A stretch of DNA of 64,000 nt from Nitrospira sp. (lineage in GTDB: Bacteria > Nitrospirota > Nitrospiria > Nitrospirales > Nitrospiraceae), in NCBI GenBank assembly GCA_030692565.1, contig JAUYAO010000045.1, positions 1-64,000 on the forward strand, written 5' to 3'. Each line of letters opens with the position of its first letter. The stretch's first letter is position 1. The notes under the pieces are model-generated. The model worked only from the letters and a program-made list of their open reading frames with translations, did not search any database and was not told the origin of the DNA. This document shows positions 40,390 to 42,074 of the stretch, in pieces. The position numbers and the translations under genes were made by a program.

Positions 40390-40968
40390 ATGACGACGAT
40401 GACAATCACACGTGTGCTGGCGGCTGTTCTAGTTTGCGGTGTCGTGAGTGCGTCGGCCTTGTCGGCAGCTGAGCGACCCATGATGCAGCCGCGCGTGCCG
40501 GCTGACAAGCTGGCGGAAGCGCGCGCATTGGCGAGTCCGTTGCCGAATTCCGCCGAGATCGTCGAGAAGGGCAAGGCGCTCTACAACGGCAAAGGCACGT
40601 GCTTCAATTGCCACGGCAAAGACGGATCGGGCAACGGTATGGCGGCAGTCGGTCTCGATCCCTCGCCGCGTAATTTTCAACACCATGGATTCTGGCGGCA
40701 TCGGACGGAAGGCGAGATTTACTGGGTCATCAAGCACGGCTCGCCCGGCACGGCTATGATCGGATTCGGCGATCAACTCAGCGATGAGGAGATCTGGTCC
40801 CTCATCCAATACGAGCGAAGCTTTGCCGGAGAACATGGGCCAGGCATGATGGGGCACAGAGAAGGCATGGGCTCCGGAATGGGACCCGGCGGAGGGATGG
40901 GCGGCATGGGACACCGCGGACCGAAAGACGGGATGGGGTGCCGTGAAACGGAGAGCTGCGAGAAGTAA
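40390..40968 (+). CDS. Monoheme cytochrome c with Met/Gly/His-rich tail
   Basis: 192 residues. Signal peptide to about 27; heme motif CFNCH near residue 75; probable Met ligand in GTAMIGF; domain ends near 145 with LIQYERSFAG. The last 45 residues are a GMMGHREGMGSGMGPGGG-type tail rich in Met, Gly and His, ending CRETESCEK, likely to bind copper or another soft metal. The heme domain resembles the fourth domain of the tetraheme protein at 49755. AGGAGTAGG precedes the ATG, 8 bases after ppk2. Confidence 0.87.
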   Translation: MTTMTITRVLAAVLVCGVVSASALSAAERPMMQPRVPADKLAEARALASPLPNSAEIVEKGKALYNGKGTCFNCHGKDGSGNGMAAVGLDPSPRNFQHHGFWRHRTEGEIYWVIKHGSPGTAMIGFGDQLSDEEIWSLIQYERSFAGEHGPGMMGHREGMGSGMGPGGGMGGMGHRGPKDGMGCRETESCEK

Positions 40969-41298
40969 GAGGAGCTCTCTGGTCGGGCTGGACGATCGTC
41001 TGTACCCATGTGCGTCGCGCTGATGTAAGCCCTCGCCCCAATAGTCCGGACTCTCATAGGCCGTCGACTGCGGGCCGGGAGAAGCGGTTATCGCCGACCC
41101 CGAAGTCCTGGCCGTGCCTCCCCTCACCGATCTCGAATCTGTCAGCCCAATCCAGCAGGATAACCACTTCATCGGCATGCCTGCACCTCTTCTCGTGCGG
41201 CCTCCGGTTATTAAATTACCGCTCTTCGTAAATGGGGTATCTTGCGCCATCGATAGCCTCGCGTCTGGGGCAATAATCTGCACGCCATTGCATAACGC

Positions 41299-41323
41299 CT
41301 CTCTCTCTCTCTCTCTCTCTCTC
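41299..41323. repeat. (CT)12 dinucleotide microsatellite
   Basis: Twelve uninterrupted CT units plus a C. Tracts of this length are rare in bacterial chromosomes and prone to slippage. It lies about 225 bases upstream of the CBS-domain gene and about 330 bases after the cytochrome gene, outside any accepted coding frame. Confidence 0.9.
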
Positions 41324-41452
41324 ATAACCAGCTCAATCAAGTAGTTGGGTCCTGGTGCTATTCTGTGAAGCCTACGCACAGAGAGAGGTATGACTCTTGC
41401 GCTCATTGAAAATTGTCAGCCTATCGAGTGATTGTGCAGGCGATGTGCGAAT

Positions 41453-41484
41453 CCTATTCAGTCTCGAAGACTCACATGAATAGG
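41453..41484 (+). promoter_or_regulatory. Stem-loop in the leader of the CBS-domain gene
   Basis: CCTATTC AGTCT pairs with AGACT and, after a 5-base bulge, GAATAGG, with a CGA loop. It lies 64 bases before the ATG of the CBS gene and has no T-run, so it may be an mRNA leader element. Confidence 0.35.
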
Positions 41485-41547
41485 CAGGGCATTTGAGAGG
41501 ATTCAAGAGTGCCCGTTTCTTCATTCACCAATACCAAGGAGGGGTTC

Positions 41548-41991
41548 ATGTCTACGTTATCCAGACCGGGCGTTCCTGTCGGAGGCTTCAAGACAGTGGG
41601 GCAGGTGCATGCGACGAACGATCTCGTATTTGGCCGGACACACAATGCGATGGGTGTGGCGGTGGAACTGCTGACAACGCATACACCGGGTGCGCCGGTT
41701 GTCGATGATGCGGGACAATTTATCGGCTTCGTGAGCGAGTTCGACATTTTGCGCGCGCTGAGCGCGGAGAAGGATCTGAATCAACTTACAGCCGGAGACG
41801 TCATGGGGAAGGATCGAATTGCTGTGACCGATGAGACGAGCATCGAAGACGCCCTCAAGCTGATGGATGAGAAGCGGCTGCTGAACCTTCCGGTTCAACG
41901 CAATGGAAAGGTGACCCATTCGATCACCCGCCACGACATTCTGCGGGCATGGATCGGATTGGGCGTCGATATCGAGAATCCGGCAATGTAA
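41548..41991 (+). CDS. CBS-domain pair protein
   Basis: 147 residues made up almost entirely of two CBS motifs: one ending VVDDAGQFIGFVSEFDILRAL and the second DVMGKDRIAVTDETSIEDALKLM...LPVQ...SITRHDILRAW. CBS pairs bind adenosine nucleotides (AMP, ATP, SAM) and regulate partners. No enzyme domain is fused, so it presumably acts on another protein. AAGGAGGGG stands just before the ATG. Confidence 0.9.
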   Translation: MSTLSRPGVPVGGFKTVGQVHATNDLVFGRTHNAMGVAVELLTTHTPGAPVVDDAGQFIGFVSEFDILRALSAEKDLNQLTAGDVMGKDRIAVTDETSIEDALKLMDEKRLLNLPVQRNGKVTHSITRHDILRAWIGLGVDIENPAM

Positions 41992-42074
41992 TCGCGCGAC
42001 CGGCGTGCGCGTGGCGGCACCGCAGTCGATGGGCTGCGGCGCCGCCGGGTGTGGAGTGGTCGGCCAAGGAGGGC

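Follow-up and report, generated by a model that had tools for sequence, protein, structure and literature searches.

A (CT)12 tract in the leader of a Nitrospira CBS-domain gene, probably an ordinary slippage microsatellite

A long, perfect dinucleotide repeat is an unusual feature of a bacterial genome, and its position 5' of a gene raises the question of whether it regulates that gene, is left over from another gene, or is a microsatellite with little consequence for its neighbors. We addressed this question for a (CT)12 tract in Nitrospira sp., using the window (the whole stretch of 64,000 nucleotides that was analyzed), the genome from which it derives and 79 genomes of the genus, with one genome per species.

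The tract and its setting

An initial annotation placed a (CT)12 microsatellite between a cytochrome gene and a CBS gene and called it exceptional. Both statements agree with our results. The tract consists of 12 error-free CT units followed by a C, and it is the only place with at least nine CT/GA units in the 4,167,159 bases of its own genome, which hold two CT/GA places of at least six units. It lies in a gap of 579 nt, from the stop at 40968 to the start at 41548, and is 224 nt from the CBS start codon.

40390-40968, plus strand: cytochrome c gene (Pfam PF13442 and PF00034), upstream boundary of the gap
41299-41323, no strand assigned: (CT)12C perfect dinucleotide tract, 25 nt here and 13 nt in the sister genome G030
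41548-41991, plus strand: CBS-domain gene, 147-aa product with two matched CBS stretches (PF00571, E 4.7e-19), protein 100% identical in G030

The gene order around the gap is PPK2, cytochrome c, the gap with the tract, CBS, Cu/Zn superoxide dismutase and a further cytochrome. The CBS protein has matches at E <= 1e-20 in 34 of the 79 genus genomes, and its residues 75-144 are 73% identical to a protein of a Nitrospira MAG. Our search of open-access literature for any three of CBS domain, Nitrospira, sigma-54 and polyphosphate kinase together found no report.

A chance origin of the tract was rejected, as 100 dinucleotide-preserving shuffles of the window yielded no copy of it and only about 1e-8 copies of the 25-mer would be expected in the genome; the corresponding expectation for (CT)9 is 1e-4 (first-order Markov model, window composition). 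The tract therefore fits the definition of a bacterial microsatellite, in which a unit of 1-6 nt is repeated perfectly in tandem to an extent that chance does not explain. Counting whole AG or CT units, with the GA/TC phase not scored on its own, the window's second-longest run measures 8 nt. No other repeat of at least 12 nt was found in the gap by a search that omits units of 1-3 bases, and the 9-nt partner run described below falls under this length limit. No intrinsic terminator was predicted in 40900-41650 (0.6 expected), and no Rfam family reached its gathering threshold in the window. A K_chan_RES RNA element in 40960-41600 (E 0.4, 19.6 bits vs 51) was taken as a chance match.

Comparison with a sister genome

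The leader between the tract and the CBS gene (41324-41547) was matched in two of the 79 genus genomes, its own and G030. Comparison of tract length among strains had been proposed in the initial annotation, and G030, the one other genome in which the locus was found, made a comparison between genomes possible. Its neighboring genes are collinear with those of the window and it carries the tract at the same place, at a length of 13 nt vs 25 nt here. Length variation between related genomes is thus observed, in this single comparison.

41242-41547, plus strand: leader common to G030 (with the tract counted in, 278 identities over 296 aligned positions, and a further 10 gap positions)

Based on these observations, we consider it probable that the tract is an ordinary CT/GA slippage microsatellite in the non-coding leader upstream of the CBS-domain gene. 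It would grow and shrink via slipped-strand mispairing, the process by which ordinary bacterial microsatellites change according to a review (PMC7015867). The tract resembles such microsatellites in being a perfect dinucleotide array of variable length in a non-coding place. Unlike them, it is unusually long and single in its genome, and tracts of at least nine units in the genus belong to the CT/GA class only. Slippage would be the simplest mechanism for the length difference, as judged from one genome pair. We also infer that the tract does not strongly affect the CBS gene, since it has half the length in the sister species and most orthologues are without it. As matters stand, the case shows that the rarity of a repeat does not by itself make a regulator.

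The following points speak against plain slippage: the low divergence of the leader and CBS gene, a kept sigma-54-like site, a kept AG run and the excess of one tract class in the genus. With regard to the first, 213 of 227 positions (94%) from the tract end to the start codon are identical to G030, and the block 41237-42056 as a whole has 95% identity, vs 87-92% for the other five long blocks in the comparison. Four-fold sites follow the same pattern, with 73/80 identical in the CBS gene vs 445/585 in six neighboring genes (Fisher p 0.0014). Upstream of about 41237 the gaps of the window and G030 are dissimilar, and the Cu/Zn superoxide dismutase gene 3' of CBS had no match within the compared 7001-base stretch of G030. 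This suggests that the leader and CBS gene form a mosaic block with its own history, through either recent exchange or selection. Constraint or recent exchange fits their low divergence as well as neutrality does.

Promoter candidates and leader structure

The strongest of the alternatives is that a sigma-54-type promoter and an upstream activator site flank the tract, so that changes in its length would rotate or shift the activator site and thereby tune transcription of the CBS gene. It was suggested in the initial annotation that the tract may alter spacing in a promoter, and a hairpin was noted in the CBS leader. The features that bear on these proposals are as follows.

41380-41388, plus strand: AGAGAGAGG, which could base-pair with the start of the CT tract; G030 retains its AG run
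41386-41401, plus strand: AGGTATGACTCTTGCG, candidate -24/-12 sigma-54-like element of the form GG-N10-GC, the best score in the leader
41453-41484, plus strand: drawable leader hairpin

GG-N10-GC is the spacing of sigma-54 promoters, and activator sites are often found about where the tract sits relative to such a promoter. The first base of AGGTATGACTCTTGCG is 63 nt past the last tract base and at -162 from the CBS start codon. The element is identical in sequence in G030, and the genome encodes a Sigma54_DBD protein. In contrast, its score, obtained with a general sigma-54 consensus and weights, is weak: among 2000 dinucleotide shuffles of the leader, 123 score at least as high, and the two strands of the window hold 42 sites that equal or exceed it. 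A spacing effect of the tract on this candidate promoter is therefore conceivable. A single sigma-70-like match was detected, upstream of the tract (0.5 expected); its AATAAT aligns with AATAAG in G030.

The upstream regions of CBS orthologues bear on both the preferred reading and the promoter alternative. We examined 24 of them (L037-L060) out of 30 loci, with L061-L066 left out. In the 22 regions other than those of the window and G030, CT/AG runs within 400 nt do not exceed 8 nt, which argues against a conserved role of the tract in regulating this gene. The motif [CT]GGCA[CT]N5TCGCA is present in 14 of the 24 regions and a looser form in 18, vs an expectation of 0.0006 per shuffled 400 nt for the stricter form. 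Twelve of the 14 copies are at -132 to -153, and those of G070 and G021 are at -280 and -295. This suggests that the CBS gene may be sigma-54-dependent in relatives. The count nevertheless overstates the independent support, as the motif was composed with the upstream regions already in view, and the species share ancestry. Further, the motif form found in orthologues is absent from the window and from G030, and the activator site is purely hypothetical. On balance, we regard a promoter tuned by tract length as an unlikely, though not negligible, explanation. Examples of this CGGCATCAGAATCGCA-like orthologue motif, of the sigma-54-like form GG-N10-GC, are those 5' of the CBS gene at L039, L045, L052 and L058.

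Most known simple-repeat switches come from host-adapted pathogens, and if the tract did tune a promoter, this mechanism would be extended to a free-living environmental nitrifier. Nitrospira is unmentioned among the matches listed in our search of the literature on repeats and phase variation. As described in the respective reports, changes in the length of the nadA tract of Neisseria meningitidis (PMC2791445) and of the sabA T-tract of Helicobacter pylori (PMC4081817) were shown to change promoter output. Like these tracts, the one described here is a variable-length repeat in a non-coding region 5' of a gene. Unlike them, it is known from sequence alone, and its gene encodes a CBS-domain protein and not an adhesin.

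Leader structure was also considered. Apart from the tract itself, the window's sole stretch of four whole AG or CT units, in a count that did not score the GA/TC phase on its own, is the one within AGAGAGAGG, at a distance of 57 nt from the tract. Folding of 41290-41400 predicts a structure, including the stem that AGAGAGAGG would form, that is no better than those of shuffled sequences (50/200). The hairpin at 41453-41484 can be drawn as the initial annotation implied. As a conserved structure it was rejected, because it does not form in the fold of G030 and 28 of 200 shuffles fold as well.

Long tracts in the genus, gene remnants and reading frames

CT/GA tracts of at least nine units occur in six of the 79 genus genomes, one in each (four of the 49 genomes of higher quality), and AC, AT and GC tracts of this length in none of the 79. 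This excess of one class is not predicted by slippage at equal rates across classes. The six tracts are all at different loci, and the five outside the window's genome are each either on a different contig from their genome's best CBS match or 25 kb or more away from it. Those of G004, G022 and G033 were read by eye as intergenic. A 26-nt CT/GA tract is also present in G050, a genome of the same order. The settings of the tracts differ between genomes, which fits a sporadic origin.

A broader explanation is that free-living bacteria of this genus employ sporadic long CT/GA tracts as slippage switches, acting at a start codon in some species, such as G021, and here as a spacer by which a sigma-54-type promoter of a CBS-domain regulator is tuned, with the class bias reflecting a shared mutational or selective process. 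We think this improbable, and more so than a promoter effect at the present locus. The G021 tract (G021:C45:70420-70448; L083 / L012) is a 29-nt GA repeat that directly follows an ATG and is in frame. The product of this gene looks secreted (signal peptide judged by eye), and a paralogue 14 kb off, at 56 kb of the same contig, is 83% identical and without the tract. The locus is a candidate for translational phase variation, and it resembles the in-frame contingency repeats of pathogens (PMC2651432, PMC6321876). The tract of the window differs from such repeats in lying outside any conserved reading frame. In G018 (C4; L016 1494-1999), ATG-GCT enters a 31-nt GA tract in a frame that closes after 13 codons, and a 166-codon frame opens within the tract, so that the repeat is apparently out of frame at the start of the gene.

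It was also proposed in the initial annotation that the tract may be a remnant of a changing gene, and this found no support: no Pfam match was obtained and the minus-strand ATG frame through the tract stops in G030. One form of the proposal is that the tract arose next to the debris of a broken CBS gene that makes up the upstream half of the gap. The relevant feature is the following.

41151-41178, plus strand: possible CBS relic, a 28-nt match (93%, E 3e-4) to a CBS-domain gene of G026

This match, and the presence in G021 of two CBS matches about 1.3 kb apart, point faintly to a possible decayed CBS fragment in the upstream half of the gap. The match is single and short, however, and the 94-aa frame around it matches nothing in Pfam even with a cutoff of E 1. 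In addition, the tract is in the part common to G030 and outside the matched part. An origin of the tract beside a decayed gene therefore seems quite unlikely.

Still less credible is a translational contingency locus on the minus strand, in which an ATG followed by (GA)n would switch a reading frame. On this strand an ATG leads directly into the tract and the frame is open for 298 codons in the window, a layout similar to that of the G021 GA tract just past its start codon, whose paralogue is tract-less. In G030, however, the same ATG frame reaches a stop after five codons, which largely refutes the idea. The long frame of the window also runs antisense over the cytochrome gene, and the sequence beyond about 41237 (downstream on the minus strand) is not common to G030. 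With the same cutoff of E 1, neither of the two frames of at least 50 codons across the tract was assigned to a Pfam family. A coding role was considered unlikely on the basis of these Pfam-less frames and the early stop in G030.

Least likely of all is an assembly artefact of tract length: the number of units is known from the assembly alone, but a CT tract stands at the same place in a second genome. The tract could be used as a length marker for strain typing.
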